DNA of 41,262 nt from a virus, in IMG/VR virus record IMGVR_UViG_3300042471_000991, positions 1 to 41,262 of that record; one strand, written 5' to 3'. The position numbers and the translations under genes are program-made. The notes under the pieces are model-generated. The model did not search any database. It saw only the letters and a list, made by a program, of their open reading frames with translations, and was not told the DNA's origin. Below, in pieces: positions 14,815 through 38,383 of the stretch (position 1 is its first letter; the number at the start of each line of letters is the position of its first letter).

Positions 14815-15438
14815 TTACTCCGTTCCGTCTGACATTAACATATCATGTCTATTGTGAAACCAAGCTGGTATTGAGTATCTAGTTCCAGAAACGATATCCG
14901 ATATTGTATGAACATACAAAAAGTTTGATGGGAATAAGACAACGCTTCCAGCTTTTGGTTTTATTGTTATATTTGAAATTGGAAAAGATATTTCTCCACC
15001 TTCATAATCGTCATTTAAATATATTAACACACTTAAGGCTCTTGTACTTACTCCATGATCTTGATGGGGAGGTAAAAATCCACCTTTAACATATTTTAAT
15101 ATATTTGGCCTTTCTCGCCCCTTTAAATTAGCTCTAGCAAATGTATACTCACTAAAGTACTCTTCTAGTGCTTTGTCTGCAATTAAGTTAATTTCATTTA
15201 TTAAAAATAATTCTTCTTCATAGTATTTATGATTTGTAAAAAGCTCTTCCTTGTTTTGTAGTCTTTTTTGATAACAAAATACACTGTTTTGTCCATCCAC
15301 CCATGGATTCCAAATTGTTCCATTATTTTCTTGTTCACTTTTACTATTATAGTTTTCTAAGAATTCAATTATTTGATTTCCATTATTAAAAACATCCTCA
15401 ACCATAATTAAACCAAGATCTAATTTTTTAGTTATCAT
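14815..15438 (-). CDS. 2-oxoglutarate/Fe(II) oxygenase, P4H-like (207 aa)
   Basis: ATG 15438 follows GGAGG with six-base spacing and overlaps the upstream stop; a longer frame is rejected. FLPPHQDHG gives iron ligands H125 and D127, VHTIS gives H177, and GTRYSIPAWF gives R187 for 2-oxoglutarate, all in the expected order and spacing of prolyl-4-hydroxylase-type enzymes. IYLNDDYEGGEISFP is the typical central strand pair. Likely hydroxylates a protein or sugar using O2. Immediately upstream of the GlcNAc-transferase-like gene. Confidence 0.85.
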   Translation of the reverse strand: MITKKLDLGLIMVEDVFNNGNQIIEFLENYNSKSEQENNGTIWNPWVDGQNSVFCYQKRLQNKEELFTNHKYYEEELFLINEINLIADKALEEYFSEYTFARANLKGRERPNILKYVKGGFLPPHQDHGVSTRALSVLIYLNDDYEGGEISFPISNITIKPKAGSVVLFPSNFLYVHTISDIVSGTRYSIPAWFHNRHDMLMSDGTE

Positions 15439-25692: not shown

Positions 25693-25800
25693 TTACCTCA
25701 CACTTTGTAGGGAATCTACACAATTTGGACATATCGCAATAATGTTGCGTTTTGATACATAGGTGGTCTGACCACATAACTTACAATTTTTCTTACTCAT
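25693..25800 (-). CDS. 35-residue zinc-ribbon protein
   Basis: MSKKNCKLCGQTTYVSKRNI then IAICPNCVDSLQSVR: two CxxC knuckles spaced for one zinc ion. CAACAGAAAGGA lies upstream. Directly behind the promoter at 25836. Function unknown. Confidence 0.65.
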   Translation of the reverse strand: MSKKNCKLCGQTTYVSKRNIIAICPNCVDSLQSVR

Positions 25801-25835
25801 TTTGAAATCCTTTCTGTTGATTTCTTATACTGCGT

Positions 25836-29721: not shown

Positions 29722-29740
29722 TATTTCAGAAAGGTACCCC

Positions 29741-30457
29741 ATGAAATTAAAACGCTCTAATGATAGAAAAGTGGCTAATGCCGTATCCCCTAATGGTAAA
29801 ACGCCTACTATTGCTAATACCTTCGGACTACCCGCAGGAAAAGATTACTCATGCCCTAATCAGACACCGACATGCGCTAAAGTCTGCTATGCAGGGAAGT
29901 TAGAAAAGATATACAAAGGTGTTAGAGATACCCTATTGCATAACTGGAATTTACTTAAAGACGCAGACCATGATACTATGGAAGCGTTATTACAAGACAT
30001 GATAAATGATTTCAGAAAAGATTGTGATAAAAGGGAAGCTCCAAAGTTATTCCGTATCCATTGGGACGGAGATTTCTTTAATGATACTTATACACTAGCA
30101 TGGAAAAGTGTTATTCTAAATAATACAGACATACAATTTTGGGTTTATACTCGTGTACCCGCCGCCGCCCGTATGCTAAAAGAGATTGACAACCTATCTC
30201 TCTATTTTAGTACTGATACAGATAACAAAGATGAGGCTATTGAGTTATCACAAAGTGGAATTAGATTAGCATACTTAGCGGATACCTTCGCAATTGGGCA
30301 GTCAGACATGAAAGCCATGATTGGCAGGGTAGGCGCAAAATGTCCTGAAAACAAAAAAGCAATTCCTCTAATTGACAAAGAGGGCTCTGCTTGTGTAAAA
30401 TGTTCCTTGTGTGTCTATAACAAAGCGGACATAGTGTTTAGTGCTAAGAAAAAATAG
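29741..30457 (+). CDS. Gp88-like phage protein (238 aa)
   Basis: YSCPNQTPTCAKVCYAGK (Cys near residues 38, 45 and 49) and the C-terminal KCPENKK...CVKCSLCVYNK match the gene-product-88 family found in mycobacteriophages and plasmids. RIHWDGDFFNDTYTLAWKSV and FWVYTRVPAAARML are its central conserved blocks. The cysteines could hold an Fe-S cluster or zinc. Function of the family is unknown. CAGAAAGG lies upstream. Confidence 0.8.
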   Translation: MKLKRSNDRKVANAVSPNGKTPTIANTFGLPAGKDYSCPNQTPTCAKVCYAGKLEKIYKGVRDTLLHNWNLLKDADHDTMEALLQDMINDFRKDCDKREAPKLFRIHWDGDFFNDTYTLAWKSVILNNTDIQFWVYTRVPAAARMLKEIDNLSLYFSTDTDNKDEAIELSQSGIRLAYLADTFAIGQSDMKAMIGRVGAKCPENKKAIPLIDKEGSACVKCSLCVYNKADIVFSAKKK

Positions 30458-30814: not shown

Positions 30815-30835
30815 TTCCTAATACAGGAAAAGTCC

Positions 30836-30860
30836 TGAGCATGACTACTAAAAAGGCTCA
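30836..30860 (+). repeat. CCTGAGCA hairpin element, copy 1
   Basis: TGAGC...GCTCA with a longer 15-base middle than the other copies. Follows the stop of 30650-30814. Confidence 0.5.
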
Positions 30861-30891: not shown

Positions 30892-30928
30892 AGGATAAGC
30901 CCTAAAACACCAACAGAAAGGAAATAAA

Positions 30929-31351
30929 ATGGCTAGACAGAAAGCAATTAGCGTGAAAATCGCTACCACTAAAGTTATCAAGGCTTTAGAAACTAAGTTA
31001 GCACAAATCAAAAATGATTATGCTAAGCAAGATGAGAACGAGGCGAAGTTCCAAAAGGCTACTGAGAAGTGGAATAAGGAAATCGCTAAGTTAGCCGTAG
31101 CACAAATCTCTAAGGCTAAAAATGTTCGCACAAGTTATCGTTCTTGGAATAACACCCTAAATGTTGATTTTGACTTAGAACTCAACGAGAAGGAGTTTCC
31201 ACCGCAACCTGAGCGTGATTTTGAGCAAATCCACCGCCACTCTTACAATGAGATGGTAGAGGAAATTGAGAACGCAATTCGTATTCTCAAGATGACAGAT
31301 GAGGAAACAGTTTCCACTTCTACTTACAACGCTATCGCAAGATACTTGTAA
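30929..31351 (+). CDS. Lys-rich coiled-coil protein (140 aa)
   Basis: MARQKAISVKIATTKVIKAL and EAKFQKATEKWNKEIAKLAV form long basic helices; the C-terminal half has FDLELNEKEFPPQPERDFEQ. Likely soluble and oligomeric, perhaps nucleic-acid associated. Leader CACCAACAGAAAGGA. Flanked by the two SH3-like paralogues. No family recognised. Confidence 0.65.
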   Translation: MARQKAISVKIATTKVIKALETKLAQIKNDYAKQDENEAKFQKATEKWNKEIAKLAVAQISKAKNVRTSYRSWNNTLNVDFDLELNEKEFPPQPERDFEQIHRHSYNEMVEEIENAIRILKMTDEETVSTSTYNAIARYL

Positions 31352-31362
31352 AATTACTTTCC

Positions 31363-31385
31363 TGAGCATGAAATAAAACTGCTCA
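31363..31385 (+). repeat. CCTGAGCA hairpin element, copy 2
   Basis: TGAGCA, 11-base loop ending AAAAC, TGCTCA. Sits between genes of one transcript, directly before a CACCAACAGAAAGGA leader. Confidence 0.6.
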
Positions 31386-31412
31386 ACACACACCAACAGA
31401 AAGGAAAAACAA

Positions 31413-31580
31413 ATGACATTAGGCGGATACACTTATCAAGTAGGAGATTTATTCACTACTTCTAAAACAGGTATCACAGGTCGCATTGAAAAGTTTGTTC
31501 CACAAACTAAGAATGTTACTCGTGTAATGCTACGCTTGGCAAATGGTCAGCAAAGATTTGCTATGGTAAAAACTTACTAA
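31413..31580 (+). CDS. SH3-like small protein (55 aa), copy 2
   Basis: GGYTYQVGDLFTTSKTGITG, RIEKFVPQTKNVTRVMLRLA: paralogue of 30650-30814 with the same motif order. CACCAACAGAAAGGA leader; no promoter of its own seen. Confidence 0.65.
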   Translation: MTLGGYTYQVGDLFTTSKTGITGRIEKFVPQTKNVTRVMLRLANGQQRFAMVKTY

Positions 31581-31591
31581 CAAAATTATCC

Positions 31592-31614
31592 TGAGCAAGA
31601 TAAAAAACTGCTCA
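31592..31614 (+). repeat. CCTGAGCA hairpin element, copy 3
   Basis: TGAGCA, 11-base loop, TGCTCA then AAAAAAT and a C7G3 tract. Confidence 0.6.
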
Positions 31615-31698: not shown

Positions 31699-31726
31699 TA
31701 GATATACAAACAGAAAGGAAACCCCC

Positions 31727-32002
31727 ATGTTAGCAACTGCTATCGCACTACAAGAAGCAACACAAGAAGCCGTCCATGATGAAGAAACTATGGCTATGGC
31801 TTCTGCTTTATTTCATCACAGAAATGAATTAGAAGAAGATGATTTTATCAGAATGATTTATATGTATTCTGCTCATCTTGCTTCACTTACCGCTACCCTC
31901 GTCACACATGTCTGCTTGACAGAAACACAATTAAATGAGATGATGGATACTATTAAAGAAATGAACACCATTGGAGAGGAAATAACAAATGGAAACGACT
32001 AA
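31727..32002 (+). CDS. Helical hypothetical protein (91 aa)
   Basis: ATG 31727 after ACAGAAAGGAAACCCCC; upstream TTG belongs to the promoter. Alanine- and Glu-rich helices (MLATAIALQEATQEAVHDEE; MIYMYSAHLASLTATLVTHV). Overlaps the next gene by 14 bases. No family recognised. Confidence 0.6.
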   Translation: MLATAIALQEATQEAVHDEETMAMASALFHHRNELEEDDFIRMIYMYSAHLASLTATLVTHVCLTETQLNEMMDTIKEMNTIGEEITNGND

Positions 32003-32441: not shown

Positions 32442-32461
32442 TAGTGGGGCTATCCAGGACC

Positions 32462-32484
32462 TGAGCACGTCCTAAAACTGCTCC
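32462..32484 (+). repeat. CCTGAGCA hairpin element, copy 4
   Basis: TGAGCA, 11-base loop, TGCTCC; the final pair is lost. Followed by CCCGGG. Confidence 0.55.
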
Positions 32485-33642: not shown

Positions 33643-33656
33643 GTAATCGCAACTCC

Positions 33657-33688
33657 TGAGCAAGAGTATAAACTGCTCAATTTTTTTT
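33657..33688 (+). terminator. CCTGAGCA hairpin element, copy 5, with T tract
   Basis: TGAGCA, 11-base loop ending AAAC, TGCTCA followed by ATTTTTTTT. This copy looks like a factor-independent terminator. It ends at the tRNA. Confidence 0.65.
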
Positions 33689-33872: not shown

Positions 33873-33896
33873 TTATTTACCACAGAAAGGGTATAT

Positions 33897-34058
33897 ATGT
33901 TAGGTTATACAAGATATGATATAGAAAAAATGATTGCATCAATAGATATTGCTATTATCTATTTAGAGGATCATGTAAGTAAAGAAGCATTGGCTATGAA
34001 GGGATTAGCAGATACCGCTAGTTTATTAGAAGGTTTAATTGCTGAAGGTCATGTTTGA
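33897..34058 (+). CDS. Small helical protein (53 aa)
   Basis: MLGYTRYDIEKMIASIDIAI, IYLEDHVSKEALAMKGLADT. CACAGAAAGGG leader. Its stop overlaps the next promoter by four bases. No family recognised. Confidence 0.65.
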   Translation: MLGYTRYDIEKMIASIDIAIIYLEDHVSKEALAMKGLADTASLLEGLIAEGHV

Positions 34059-34083: not shown

Positions 34084-34108
34084 AATATCACCAACAGAAA
34101 GGACCCCC

Positions 34109-34849
34109 ATGCCAAATTGGGTATATAACACCTTGACAATTCAAGGACCAAAAGAGCAAGTTGATTCTATAAAAGATAGGCTCAATGCTCCATATAAGAA
34201 AACATTTGAGAATTGGAATATGCAATCTCAACAAATGGAATTCAAGGAATATGAATTCTCTAATCCTGTCTTTGCATTTCATAATATATATAATCATTTG
34301 CAGGACGGTGTCTCAGATGAGACATATCATTTGCAGAAAGACCCAAACGAGAATTCTGAATATATGTTCTCAGGTAATAACTGGTATTCATGGAATGTCC
34401 GTAATTGGGGAACTAAATGGGATGTTGCTGTTCATAATGACGATAAGTATCCTGATACTTCTTTGCTAGAACATATGTCTAATGGTGAGGACCAATGGGT
34501 TGTATATTCATTCAATACCGCTTGGTCGCCGCCTGTGCCTGCTATGGAGAAGTTGTCTGCCCTTGTGCCTAACTGTGTAATTACTCTTACATATCAAGAG
34601 GAACAAGGTTGGGGTGGGGAAGTAGAATTTGTCAATGGAAAGATGACTGCTGAATCTAATTATGAATCTCAGTGCAGAGATTGTGATGCAATTGACTGCA
34701 TGGATTATTGTGATAATGATTGTGGCGAAATATGTAATGAATGTCACTATCTAGGCGAGGCAGACCTAGAGTGTGTTGCGGAATGCGATATACATAAAGT
34801 ATACTTGGACGACGACCATGTTCCAGAATACAGAAGGGTAAAATCATAA
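34109..34849 (+). CDS. Api92-like ferredoxin-fold protein, Cys-rich end (246 aa)
   Basis: ATG 34109 (MPNWVYNTLTIQGPKEQVDS) follows CACCAACAGAAAGGA. The N-terminus and GWGGEVEFVNGKM match the Api92/YubB-like ferredoxin-like family. The final 45 residues add CRDCDAIDCMDYCDNDCG and ICNECHYLG with about ten cysteines, an extra zinc-binding tail. Function unknown. Confidence 0.75.
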   Translation: MPNWVYNTLTIQGPKEQVDSIKDRLNAPYKKTFENWNMQSQQMEFKEYEFSNPVFAFHNIYNHLQDGVSDETYHLQKDPNENSEYMFSGNNWYSWNVRNWGTKWDVAVHNDDKYPDTSLLEHMSNGEDQWVVYSFNTAWSPPVPAMEKLSALVPNCVITLTYQEEQGWGGEVEFVNGKMTAESNYESQCRDCDAIDCMDYCDNDCGEICNECHYLGEADLECVAECDIHKVYLDDDHVPEYRRVKS

Positions 34850-35067: not shown

Positions 35068-35339
35068 TTGACCCATACCCGCTAGAAATACAACCACATC
35101 TGCAGAGGCAGATTGACGCAGGCTCTTCAGCCCTTGATATCATGCATGGGCACCTGAAGGAACTTCTATACGAAGCAGAGCAAGAACTGGAGAATGCACA
35201 ACGTGTAGAGGACGAGACTGAAGAGGCAATGGATTCCATGGAGCGGCGGTACTGGGAAGGACAAGTAGACGCTCTATCTTATCTATATAGTCTTACATAC
35301 CAACTATCATTTGAATATGCAGAAAGGGAAAGCAAATGA
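35064..35339 (+). CDS. Helical hypothetical protein (91 aa)
   Basis: GTG 35064 after GGAGGAAAT. Acidic helices: GHLKELLYEAEQELENAQRV and RYWEGQVDALSYLYSLTYQL. Coupled to both neighbours. No family recognised. Confidence 0.65.
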   Translation: MIDPYPLEIQPHLQRQIDAGSSALDIMHGHLKELLYEAEQELENAQRVEDETEEAMDSMERRYWEGQVDALSYLYSLTYQLSFEYAERESK

Positions 35340-35704
35340 GTTTAGATCTACAAGAACAAACACGTAGGGACGATGTATATCGTGACCTAAATGATATCTT
35401 AGATAGGGTTACTAAACTTCCTGTCTTCCCATCATTAATGTGGGTATGGGCCTTTGATATCATGAAAGAGATATTTGAGAACTATCAGATGAAGGACCTT
35501 GCTGTAAATGATTATGTTGATGAGGCTGTGCCTGAAGGCATAACTTTAAAACAAATCTTTGATAAGTTCTGGGAAGATGTAGACGGTTTCGGTCTTAGCA
35601 TGGATTCGGGCGGGGACATCATAGAAGAGACAATCAGAGATTGGATGAGAGATAACAATTTTCTTGTATCCCTGGAAGATGACGGGTGGCTGAACGATGT
35701 ATGA
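35336..35704 (+). CDS. Hypothetical protein (122 aa)
   Basis: ATG overlaps the previous stop by four bases. Helical and acidic: TRRDDVYRDLNDILDRVTKL, FDIMKEIFENYQMKDLAVND. Ends YDxx-type acidic segment SLEDDGWLNDV. Of a kind frequent in actinophage early operons; function unknown. Confidence 0.65.
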   Translation: MSLDLQEQTRRDDVYRDLNDILDRVTKLPVFPSLMWVWAFDIMKEIFENYQMKDLAVNDYVDEAVPEGITLKQIFDKFWEDVDGFGLSMDSGGDIIEETIRDWMRDNNFLVSLEDDGWLNDV

Positions 35705-36256: not shown

Positions 36257-36496
36257 ATGGCTATCAGACGAGGACTAAGATTACCGCCTTCTAAAGAAGA
36301 GAAGGTGGCTATTTCTATTGGCAAATTATTATCCGATTATTCATTAGATTTAGAATCAGTAGGTAGGTATCTTGCTACGGCACAACCTTATGTCGTTTAT
36401 CGCAGGGCAGTAGAAGTATTAGAAGCAACAGAGTATAATAAAGAAGTAGCAGAATATAGAGAAATGGGTAAATACTATGGCGACGGACTTTTCTAA
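36257..36496 (+). CDS. Hypothetical protein (79 aa)
   Basis: ATG 36257 (MAIRRGLRLPPSKEEKVAIS); GAAAGGG is three bases upstream. KLLSDYSLDLESVGRYLATA and VEVLEATEYNKEVAEYREMG are helical. Start overlaps little with its promoter; other ATG at 36245 lies within the -10 box. No family recognised. Confidence 0.6.
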   Translation: MAIRRGLRLPPSKEEKVAISIGKLLSDYSLDLESVGRYLATAQPYVVYRRAVEVLEATEYNKEVAEYREMGKYYGDGLF

Positions 36497-36749
36497 TATA
36501 TCAGAGATATTAGCAAAGCTTTATATACAATACAGAGATGATAGCACGTTCTCTGATTTTATTGAATATAATGATGTTGGATTGCCGCTTGCTTACCTTA
36601 CCGCCGAAAATCTATGCGAGCCCAGTGACGATGGACGACGGTATGTAATAGAAACATGGGATCTATTTTTATCTGCACTAGAAATAAAAGATACAGGATA
36701 TACATCTTTAGAAGAAATATTTCAGGCAGCAGGAAATAAAGATACTTGA
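36477..36749 (+). CDS. Conserved actinophage-type protein (90 aa)
   Basis: FSDFIEYNDVGLPLAYLTAE and YVIETWDLFLSALEIKDTGY resemble a recurrent actinophage early protein with E-Y-N-D-x-G-L-P-L-A-Y. ATG overlaps the previous gene by 20 bases. Function unknown. Confidence 0.65.
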   Translation: MATDFSNISEILAKLYIQYRDDSTFSDFIEYNDVGLPLAYLTAENLCEPSDDGRRYVIETWDLFLSALEIKDTGYTSLEEIFQAAGNKDT

Positions 36750-36780: not shown

Positions 36781-36885
36781 ACCAAGAGGCAGGAATTCTT
36801 AGGACGAGGGGATTTATCCGCTTCTGACATGGGACTAACACTCTCTTGGTCGCCCTGAGCATGGCGTAAAACTGCTCATAATATT
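36781..36885 (+). ncRNA. Putative small RNA A
   Basis: ACCAAGAG (36781-36788) starts about seven bases after the -10 box and pairs with CTCTTGGT (36843-36850), closing a 70-base RNA. The CCTGAGCA hairpin copy 6 follows and may end it. Related to RNA B: both have AGAGGCAGGAA or AGAAGGCAAGAA near the 5' end, TTAG, ACATGG and TCGC in the same order. No coding frame. Confidence 0.55.
36856..36878 (+). repeat. CCTGAGCA hairpin element, copy 6
   Basis: TGAGCA, 11-base loop ending AAAAC, TGCTCA at the 3' side of small RNA A. Confidence 0.6.
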
Positions 36886-37002: not shown

Positions 37003-37164
37003 ATGCCTAAAAGATATTTTTCAAAAGCTATGTTTGATAAACATTATTCATATCATCATTATGATGAATCACCAGAAGGTATATTTGAATATAAGGTATA
37101 TAGGGGATTACGAAGTATCTTTTCTATACCCCGATTTTTTTGGCGGCGGCTGCGGCGGCGGTAG
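37003..37164 (+). CDS. Basic hypothetical protein ending in CGG repeat (53 aa)
   Basis: MPKRYFSKAMFDKHYSYHHY, then IFEYKVYRGLRSIF and a basic end FWRRLRRR encoded by CGG repeats. TTTTTTT just before the repeat is a possible slippery site; the -1 frame continues for 60 codons with an Ala-rich start. Leaderless start fits the -10 box. Function unknown. Confidence 0.5.
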   Translation: MPKRYFSKAMFDKHYSYHHYDESPEGIFEYKVYRGLRSIFSIPRFFWRRLRRR

Positions 37165-37173
37165 CGGCGGGGC
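37141..37173 (+). repeat. GC-rich GGC/CGG triplet tract
   Basis: 33 bases of GGCGGC-type sequence, almost fully G and C, inside AT-rich DNA. CCCCG at 37129 and CGGGG at 37168 flank it. Composition suggests unusual origin or a structural role. Confidence 0.75.
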
Positions 37174-37500
37174 ATAAAAAAGATTACGATCATTACAAAT
37201 TATCCCCATATAAAACATTACGAACATATCAAATTTTTCCTGGATATTTTCAAATATTTTCCATATGTTTTATAACTTTTTGTTATACTTTTAAAACATT
37301 TTTGGGCAAAATTATAACATTTTAATATCAATATTTGAGACAATATTGCCCATATATTGGACTTGACAAATAGAATTTTATATGGTAATGGTTTGGGAAC
37401 TGGGTTGGTTTGAACTGGACATTACGAACGCCTCTGTAAAAGATGCTTCATCCCCCACTTTCCTCCATTTTCCTCCACAAAATTAATAAGAAAATATTAT
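37174..37500. other. AT-rich noncoding interval, possible unwinding region
   Basis: No credible gene. Strong AT bias (37200-37380) with runs such as CAAATATTTTCCATATG. TTGACA (37363-37368), 17 bp, TAATGG may be a weak promoter; the following segment contains TCCCCCACTTTCC and TTTTCCTCC. Lies beside the DnaA-box cluster. Confidence 0.45.
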
Positions 37501-37594: not shown

Positions 37595-37795
37595 ATGCCT
37601 AGCCAGAATACCAAATGGTATAAAGATATAAAGTTGATAGAAGCTTTGGACAAAATGCGCCAAGCTAATTTAGATTTTATGTCTAAATGTTATTTTTGTG
37701 GCGCTAAGTCCATAGGTATAAAGGCTATAGAAGAAAAGTTATTTTCTGTATGTTCTGATCATGAATTTAACGGGGTATCAGGAAAATCCGTATAA
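37595..37795 (+). CDS. Small zinc-binding protein (66 aa)
   Basis: MPSQNTKWYKDIKLIEALDK, helix, then SKCYFCGAKSIGIKAI and FSVCSDHEF: CxxC plus Cys-x-x-His can bind one zinc. Leaderless start. Overlaps the convergent 37759-37959 gene by 37 bases. Confidence 0.6.
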   Translation: MPSQNTKWYKDIKLIEALDKMRQANLDFMSKCYFCGAKSIGIKAIEEKLFSVCSDHEFNGVSGKSV

Positions 37796-37959
37796 TCCCC
37801 ATATGCTTCTTCACATAATGGGCAATATGAATTAGCACTTCTGGTCTTATCTAAACTAACCAGCAATAATCCTTTATCCTGCATATCTAATATCTCTGGA
37901 TCTAATCTACCATGTACTATAGGTATTAGTTTAGTCTTACATGTTATACAGTTAAGCAT
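37759..37959 (-). CDS. Zinc-ribbon protein (66 aa)
   Basis: MLNCITCKTKLIPIVHGRLD and SANSYCPLCEEAYGDYTDFP: two CxxC knuckles about 40 residues apart. ATG lies six bases after TATAAT. Function unknown. Confidence 0.65.
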   Translation of the reverse strand: MLNCITCKTKLIPIVHGRLDPEILDMQDKGLLLVSLDKTRSANSYCPLCEEAYGDYTDFPDTPLNS

Positions 37960-37965
37960 GAGATT

Positions 37966-37971
37966 ATTATA
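37966..37971 (-). promoter_or_regulatory. -10 box, leaderless start
   Basis: Minus-strand TATAAT, six bases before ATG 37959. Confidence 0.5.
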
Positions 37972-37986
37972 CTATACCGCCCCTGT

Positions 37987-38015
37987 TTGACATACCCCCA
38001 ACATTTTGCTATACT
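37987..38015 (+). promoter_or_regulatory. Promoter of small RNA B
   Basis: TTGACA, 17 bp ending TTTTGC, TATACT. The next gene (38178) has its own -10 box, so this promoter serves the structured region. Confidence 0.75.
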
Positions 38016-38020
38016 TATAT

Positions 38021-38160
38021 CTAGAAGGCAAGAACGGTTAGTTACCCTTAAATGGGAGAACATGGCCGTAACTCTTCTCATCGCTCCCTTTCTGGCGATG
38101 AAGTCGTCCCTCCCTTTCTGGGGATGCGCTCCTGGGCATGAGCGATAAACTGCCCACTTT
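38021..38160 (+). ncRNA. Putative small RNA B with twin anti-SD loops
   Basis: Starts near 38021. AGTTAC (38040) pairs with GTAACT (38068). Two successive hairpins, CATCGC/GCGATG (38079-38100) and CGTCCC/GGGATG (38105-38126), have different stems but the same ten-base loop TCCCTTTCTG. A third hairpin (38133-38156) follows. The loop is the reverse complement of CAGAAAGGGA and contains CCUUUCUG, complementary to the CAGAAAGG sites before at least six phage genes. No coding frame covers it well. The target role is inferred from pairing only. Confidence 0.65.
38133..38156 (+). repeat. CCTGAGCA hairpin element, copy 7 (TGGGCA form)
   Basis: TGGGCA, 12-base loop ending TAAAC, TGCCCA. Compared with other copies, A-U becomes G-C on both arms, which supports a paired stem. 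Confidence 0.6.
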
Positions 38161-38166
38161 CTGTTG

Positions 38167-38172
38167 TATAAT
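38167..38172 (+). promoter_or_regulatory. -10 box, near-leaderless start
   Basis: TATAAT after TTG; ATG 38178 five bases later. Confidence 0.45.
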
Positions 38173-38177
38173 ATCTT

Positions 38178-38312
38178 ATGCCTCCAACTCATCTACATGG
38201 ATATCAAATCTTTAAATTAGATAAAAAAACGTTATATTCTTGTACTAGATGTGGATGGGAAAGGATAGTAGATGAAACAGATTACGAACGAGATATTTCC
38301 TATTCAACGTGA
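38178..38312 (+). CDS. Small protein with CTRCGW motif (44 aa)
   Basis: MPPTHLHGYQIFKLDKKTLY then SCTRCGWERIVDETDYERDI. One CxxC plus an N-terminal His may bind metal. ATG five bases after TATAAT. Confidence 0.5.
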   Translation: MPPTHLHGYQIFKLDKKTLYSCTRCGWERIVDETDYERDISYST

Positions 38313-38358
38313 TGTAGATGATCACATTGATGATTTTGATAAATACGACATTATTTGA
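38272..38358 (+). CDS. Possible overlapping acidic peptide (28 aa)
   Basis: MKQITNEIFPIQRDVDDHID then DFDKYDII, with GGGAAAGGATAG upstream. Overlaps the previous gene by 41 bases in another frame and reaches into the next promoter. Confidence 0.35.
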   Translation: MKQITNEIFPIQRDVDDHIDDFDKYDII

Positions 38359-38383
38359 CTTCCCCGCCCATTTGTGAGATACT
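38355..38383 (+). promoter_or_regulatory. Promoter of FkbM gene, leaderless
   Basis: TTGACT, 17 bp ending TGA, GATACT; ATG 38390 six bases later. GGGAAG may also act as a ribosome site. Confidence 0.55.

Follow-up and report, generated by a model that had tools for sequence, protein, structure and literature searches.

The window analyzed here, that is, the whole 41,262-base IMG/VR virus record IMGVR_UViG_3300042471_000991, comes from a freshwater phage and carries on its plus strand a promoter followed by a predicted small RNA of ~145 nt, with the parts listed below (the basis of each assignment is given in brackets).

37987–38015, plus strand: sigma-70 type promoter, TTGACA-17-TATACT, with an extended −10 (TG ahead of the −10) (11 of 12 consensus positions)
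38022–38165, plus strand: small RNA, with inferred ends, comprising a 5′ hairpin, hairpins A and B, a pseudoknot and a 3′ tail (fold, homologs, covariance model R1)
38030–38076, plus strand: 5′ hairpin (predicted fold; homologs by eye)
38079–38100, plus strand: hairpin A, CATCGC (38079–38084), loop TCCCTTTCTG (38085–38094), GCGATG (38095–38100) (covariation)
38105–38126, plus strand: hairpin B, CGTCCC (38105–38110), loop TCCCTTTCTG (38111–38120), GGGATG (38121–38126) (covariation)
38128–38155, plus strand: 3′ H-type pseudoknot of the small RNA, S1 GCTC/GAGC, S2 GGGCA/TGCCC (pattern scan, covariation)
38156–38165, plus strand: 3′ tail ACTTTCTGTT (many homologs with exact CCTTTCTG there)

A preliminary description of this DNA had proposed a consensus promoter driving a noncoding segment with two adjacent hairpins of differing stems and identical loops. 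The promoter is borne out by its match to the consensus, with promoter-like sequence in the equivalent position in the homologs, and the hairpin pair is confirmed at 38079–38126; the description as a noncoding structured RNA also stands, but it had missed the 5′ hairpin, the 3′ pseudoknot and a third, degenerate copy of the loop within the 3′ tail (38157–38162), which is exact in many homologs. The segment folds with a predicted energy of −53.6 kcal mol–1, compared to −39.7 ± 3.9 kcal mol–1 for its shuffles (z −3.58), outperforming all 200 of 200 dinucleotide shuffles. We note that the homologs have a 5′ hairpin as well, but of unrelated sequence, as judged by eye.

When 21 distinct type 1 homologs are aligned (A1; the types are described below), 99.2% of the cells in the hairpin A stem and 100% of those in the hairpin B stem are paired, with both sides changed at 4/6 and 5/6 of the pairs, respectively, and thus at 9 of the 12 stem pairs taken together. 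The covariation score for the whole structure is 0.42 versus 0.145 in shuffles, none of 500 of which reached it, and falls to 0.095 or less when the structure is slid along the alignment. The loop core CCUUUCUG is invariant in these 21 homologs, CCTTTCTG is constant in both loops, and loop bases 1–2 vary (TC, TA, AA, TT or CC); because CCTTTCTG is invariant while these first two bases are not, the last G of the loop is kept even though its cross-loop partner is not. The earlier proposal that it is the loop which has been preserved is thus upheld, and its check by covariation in related phages gives compensatory changes in stems that stay paired, with neither the loop sequence nor the stems being lost in these 21 homologs. 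Furthermore, the loop-to-loop distance differs by 1–3 nt among homologs, and since it shifts by amounts other than multiples of three, the reading frame is not preserved across the hairpins; such frame-breaking indels argue against coding. An 82-aa minus-strand and a 53-aa plus-strand open reading frame do overlap the segment, in line with a coding region or with chance inverted repeats, but this explanation is refuted by the covariation, by the indels, and by the lack of any protein family match for the 82-aa frame. G-U pairs on the plus strand favor an RNA over a DNA cruciform.

Scanning IMG/VR for two copies of CCCTTTCTG spaced 10–26 nt apart returned 66 stretches, 25 of which, upon inspection of their flanks, are true homologs besides the window, the remainder being simple repeats or chance matches. 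Later scans added L085, L094, L096, L193 and L226 as well as single-hairpin forms, such that the family comprises about 35 IMG/VR loci. Type 1 members consist of hairpin A, hairpin B and the 3′ pseudoknot, while type 2 members (L002, L043, L046, L056 and L067) are without the pseudoknot and have a long-stemmed hairpin B followed by a terminator-like T-rich stretch. In the single-hairpin type (L309/L311/L379/L400/L424, L407 and L411), the sole hairpin is accompanied by the pseudoknot and a tail that contains an exact CCCTTTCTG; because this tail adds a second copy, this type too keeps two copies of CCUUUCUG. The window, with its two covarying CCUUUCUG-loop hairpins and pseudoknot, is a full-length match to covariance model R1 (109 bits, E 2.8e-27), albeit as one of the sequences from which R1 was built. 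Comparison of the window with all Rfam 15 families by cmscan gave tRNA alone at the gathering threshold, and a single chance match, to U3, at E ≤ 10 on 37900–38300. A BLAST search against cultured phages gave no DNA match, none of 43 matches to the loop-pair pattern in genome contigs is a homolog, and a search of 296 sampled Actinomycetota genomes with R1 under strict filters, a weak negative, gave no match. Judged by these sequence comparisons, the small RNA is a new, conserved and real RNA family without a match in Rfam.

The 3′ pseudoknot extends well beyond this family. Its general form is a 4 bp S1, an L1 of CU, an S2 of GRGYA/UGCYC, one nucleotide, S1′, and a linker ending in AAA, and it can also be described as CCUGAGCA-N-G...AAAC-UGCUC. 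The pattern TCCTGRGYATGA....TAAA..GC is found in 87 IMG/VR stretches, the majority without hairpins A and B, whereas a reversed control pattern gave zero matches in the eight records searched, and the module has no match in Rfam. Among 113 distinct versions, S1 pairs 2, 3 and 4 are formed in 113, 112 and 93 cases, respectively, versus 60, 47 and 47 expected, a very strong covariation. Most copies lie 10–40 nt after stop codons, and on the basis of these patterns the pseudoknot is a recurrent 3′-UTR or intercistronic element that is widespread in phages (L068–L140 and many others). The window itself has seven copies, all on the plus strand; besides the one terminating the small RNA, these are:

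30830–30859, plus strand: pseudoknot copy after stop codon 30814
31357–31384, plus strand: pseudoknot copy after stop codon 31351
31586–31613, plus strand: pseudoknot copy after stop codon 31580
32456–32483, plus strand: pseudoknot copy after stop codon 32441
33651–33678, plus strand: pseudoknot copy after stop codon 33642, followed by a T-tract and tRNA-Asp
36850–36877, plus strand: pseudoknot copy downstream of gene 36477–36749

Five of the seven begin no more than 20 nt past the stop codon of a gene in the block discussed below, and the copy at 36850 lies ~100 nt past the gene end. Tails of the 113 pseudoknots are T-enriched at positions 3–11, with clear T-tracts in L041, at 33678 in the window, and after type 2 hairpin B, and an intrinsic terminator scan of the window did not call the 3′ module of the small RNA. 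A role of this module as a terminator only was dropped after the IMG/VR pattern scan; a 3′-end, processing or protein-binding element appears likely. The leader of T4 gene 32 contains a compact H-type pseudoknot, and the present module resembles it in form and in its location near phage gene boundaries, but differs in recurring several times per genome, mostly after stops, and in ending a small RNA.

The complement of the loop core, CAGAAAGG, is present at 10 places in the window versus 1.1 expected, eight of them gene leaders and two the antisense of the loops themselves. The eight leaders are the candidate targets of the small RNA:

25809–25816, minus strand: CAGAAAGG leader of the small gene ending at 25693
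29727–29734, plus strand: CAGAAAGG leader of the GP88-family gene 29741–30457
30914–30921, plus strand: CAGAAAGG leader of gene 30929–31351 (CAGAAAGG in 9/10 carrier orthologs)
31397–31404, plus strand: CAGAAAGG leader of gene 31413–31580 (CAGAAAGG in 9/10 carrier orthologs)
31711–31718, plus strand: CAGAAAGG leader of gene 31727–32002
33883–33890, plus strand: CAGAAAGG leader of gene 33897–34058
34095–34102, plus strand: CAGAAAGG leader of gene 34109–34849
35320–35327, plus strand: CAGAAAGGGA leader of gene 35336–35704, the full 10-nt complement of the loop

The seven such leaders listed in the preliminary description are all present, but the eighth, at 35320, had been overlooked. Leaders with AGAAAGG are confined to 25.2–35.8 kb of the window, the exceptions being the loop-antisense matches and a match at 15116 with no well-fitting start codon, and form a block of ~12 kb that adjoins the small RNA. 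The minus-strand structural genes have AAAGGAG, GGAGG or GAGGTGA leaders, or a −10 element just ahead of the start codon. This clustering recurs in the 101-kb relative G002, where (in the 99.6 kb read) 14 of 14 AGAAAGG leaders lie within 11.4 kb, at 16.6–28.0 kb, while about 97 open reading frames of at least 100 aa are spread over the whole record. The predicted duplex between the loop and a CAGAAAGG leader amounts to −11.7 kcal mol–1, compared to −10.3 kcal mol–1 when the 16S tail pairs with that leader; the two are about equal for A/TAGAAAGG, and the loop pairs weakly with AAAGGAG (−5.5 kcal mol–1). One late-type GAGGTGA leader nevertheless scores −10.1 kcal mol–1 with the loop, so that late genes would not be spared altogether. 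Complementarity by itself proves little, since any sequence resembling the 16S tail complements Shine–Dalgarno (SD) sequences. A C ahead of AGAAAGG (40% versus 15–35% at neighboring positions) was set aside as a stand-alone signature, as these leaders are C/A-rich and there is little difference between carriers of the RNA (68/160) and pseudoknot-only phages (15/50); a count of 57 CAGAAAGG matches in other loci was likewise discarded, since the search pattern had itself selected for them. The evidence that counts is the comparison of leaders block by block and between orthologs, given below. Separately, many genes show a −10-like TATAAT 6–7 nt ahead of the start (in the window at 37595, 38178, 22984 and 1943, the latter two on the minus strand, among others, and in L002, L012 and L035), and are probably expressed from leaderless mRNAs, beyond the reach of an SD-pairing RNA.

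Relatives were found via the product of gene 30929–31351 (499 contigs, of which 80 were fetched), with carrier status assigned from whole-record searches and leader densities compared over 15-kb blocks in nine carriers and 32 non-carrier relatives. Per 100 kb, carriers have 33.7 CAGAAAGG leaders versus 0.7 in non-carriers, and 81.9 versus 17.8 AGAAAGG, with the reverse being the case for CGAAAGG (5.7 versus 39.8); leaders in non-carriers read CGAAAGG, GAAAAGG or AAAGGAG. In carriers, the RNA lies 7.1–8.4 kb downstream of the ortholog of 30929–31351, whose leader is CAGAAAGG in 8 of 9 and TAGAAAGG in the other; no ortholog in the long non-carriers has AGAAAGG. Non-carrier orthologs of AGAAAGG-led carrier genes retain this motif in only 5 of 112 comparisons (4/58 and 1/54). 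Further carriers outside the density count (L034, L041, L096, L407 and L411) each have 2–5 CAGAAAGG leaders, with CGAAAGG present no more than once on the coding strand, while L274 and L298 have the leader in records that end too early for carrier status. On a tree of two concatenated proteins, non-carriers are nested within the carrier clade in two groups, L278/L279/L282/L317 beside L309, and L293/L321/L322/L328/L336, and the RNA and the CAGAAAGG sites disappear together in both lineages. The RNA needs three changes on this tree, and the leaders track it in the independent contrasts found, which number only two or three, too few for significance. Searches of non-carriers for RNAs with alternative loops (CCTTTCG fitting CGAAAGG, or CCTTTTCTG fitting CAGAAAAGG) found none, nor did any lineage turn up in which another loop sequence goes together with leaders that fit it. 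This strong co-occurrence across relatives favors the pairing with CAGAAAGG leaders that had been suggested previously.

Taking these data into account, we consider it likely that the window encodes a trans-acting phage small RNA whose repeated CCUUUCUG loops pair with the SD sequences of the block genes, turning down their translation. Pairing with CAGAAAGG leaders is strongly suggested by the sequence comparisons and is the best-supported mechanism, from which we infer repression. The RNA of ~145 nt would be driven by its own sigma-70 type promoter and would display at least two copies of CCUUUCUG, either in two hairpin loops or, in single-hairpin relatives, in one loop and the 3′ tail; the stems would serve only to present the loops, their sequence being unimportant, and the repetition of the loops would raise valency. 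Each loop would form 7–8 bp with the SD of a block gene, excluding the 30S subunit and lowering translation as the RNA accumulates, such that one RNA could turn down the whole block without a repressor protein, while little effect would be expected on structural genes that have AAAGGAG/GGAGG leaders or start without a leader. The suggestion that the RNA might titrate ribosomes is not supported: running in the sense of the 16S 3′ tail, the loop would bind mRNAs and compete with the ribosome for them, whereas binding to the ribosome would need an SD-sense RNA. A more far-reaching proposal, for which we see the chances as evenly balanced, is that this one phage RNA is a post-transcriptional temporal switch for the whole block, with the block SDs serving as an address (CAGAAAGG) that selection has fitted to the RNA and that is given up once the RNA is lost, and with the RNA closed by a new, widespread phage 3′ pseudoknot, copies of which also mark where several block genes end. 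We note that selection for the very SD that is repressed makes sense only if repression is temporal.

The main rival to SD pairing by a phage regulator is a common cause, namely that the 16S 3′ tail of the carrier hosts reads CCUUUCU(G) and both the leaders and the loop follow this anti-SD, in which case the RNA would be directed chiefly against host mRNAs (host shut-off), with the phage block being hit incidentally or escaping by timing. The DUF932 product has its closest counterparts in actinobacteriophages (e.g., Streptomyces Samistivirus, 53% identity). Actinobacterial 16S genes vary just after CCTTTCT, reading CCTTTCTAAGG in 31 of 119 genomes and CCTTTCTGGAGC in five loci with 16S-like context (L372–L376), of which Rfam confirmed one as 16S. 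CCTTTCTG is encoded by some 16S genes of actinobacteria, and the preference for CGAAAGG in non-carriers would fit host 16S tails that differ between carriers and non-carriers. We nevertheless regard this explanation as unlikely, as the non-carrier sisters of L309 (protein up to 94% identical) use many leaders rather than a single alternative motif, and carrier late genes are without AGAAAGG despite sharing the same host; both observations, drawn from the leaders, speak against a common cause being the whole story. As an observation in its own right, block genes of the non-carriers among L273–L348 strongly prefer CGAAAGG, with the host 16S tail as a possible cause. L365–L370 were rejected as variant 16S tails, having CCTTTC plus another base but a context that is not 16S; these six non-16S actinobacterial loci have a conserved TCTGGATCACCTCCTTTC, the opposite strand of which is a near-perfect GAAAGGAGGTGATCC ribosome-binding site.

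At least two identical pyrimidine loops on variable stems would look much the same if they bound a pyrimidine-preferring single-strand protein of host or phage (a cold-shock protein, Rho, or a protein binding the 16S tail), but such a sponge gives no reason for CAGAAAGG leaders coming and going with the RNA, and we consider it quite improbable. Equally, the element lies directly upstream of the open reading frame 38178–38312 and ends in a hairpin-like 3′ element, as might a leader or terminator acting in cis on the small genes that follow; this is very improbable given that the downstream genes vary among carriers, that several have their own −10 6–7 nt before the start and look leaderless, and that type 2 hairpin B runs into its T-rich stretch as in a terminator.

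In its mode of action the proposed SD-pairing RNA is, by analogy, like the mycobacterial 6C/B11 RNA, without being a member of that family. In M. abscessus B11, either of two C-rich loops represses translation at ribosome-binding regions, as proven by compensatory mutations (PMC10470900). The phage RNA shares with 6C/B11 (Actinobacteria, Mycobacterium) the two hairpin loops and the actinobacterial setting, and pairing with ribosome-binding sites as in 6C is favored by complementarity, predicted energies and co-occurrence. It differs in having CCUUUCUG loops, with at most four consecutive C in TCCCTTTCTG and its variants compared to at least six in 6C loops, in its 5′ hairpin and 3′ pseudoknot, and in being encoded on a virus record rather than an actinobacterial chromosome, and the window does not match the Rfam covariance model of 6C. 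The C4 antisense RNA of phages P1 and P7 uses base pairing to occlude a ribosome-binding site of the phage (PMC12197685), as predicted here, but acts on ant mRNA, whereas the one repeated loop sequence of the window RNA fits a block of genes; the C4 Rfam model has no match in the window. Among Firmicutes, the C-rich loop RNAs RNAIII, RsaE and the csRNAs pair with SDs through pyrimidine loops, RNAIII and RsaE being the parallel drawn in the preliminary description. All of them share the pyrimidine loops and, by prediction, the SD pairing, but belong to other hosts, have other architectures and give no Rfam match here; the nearest system is instead the actinobacterial 6C/B11 RNA.

The switch from early to late genes in phages is mostly ascribed to proteins that control transcription, and a single RNA silencing a block via its ribosome-binding sites would, if true, be a simple alternative switch. 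The logic of 6C/B11, so far one of actinobacterial chromosomes, would thereby extend to the phages of these bacteria, and the idea of block silencing can be tested in that sister phages have lost RNA and sites together, while the analysis also exposes a widespread pseudoknot at phage gene ends. Finally, repeats of the ATTACGAA type cluster on the plus strand at ~37.1–39.5 kb (37107–37429, 38281 and 39489), with a whole-window count that is not significant, and a micro-ORF of ~28 aa, conserved and containing a motif that resembles RD(I/V/T)DDHIDD(F/Y), lies at 38274–38360 in the window and just 3′ of the RNA in L002, L025, L063 and L067.
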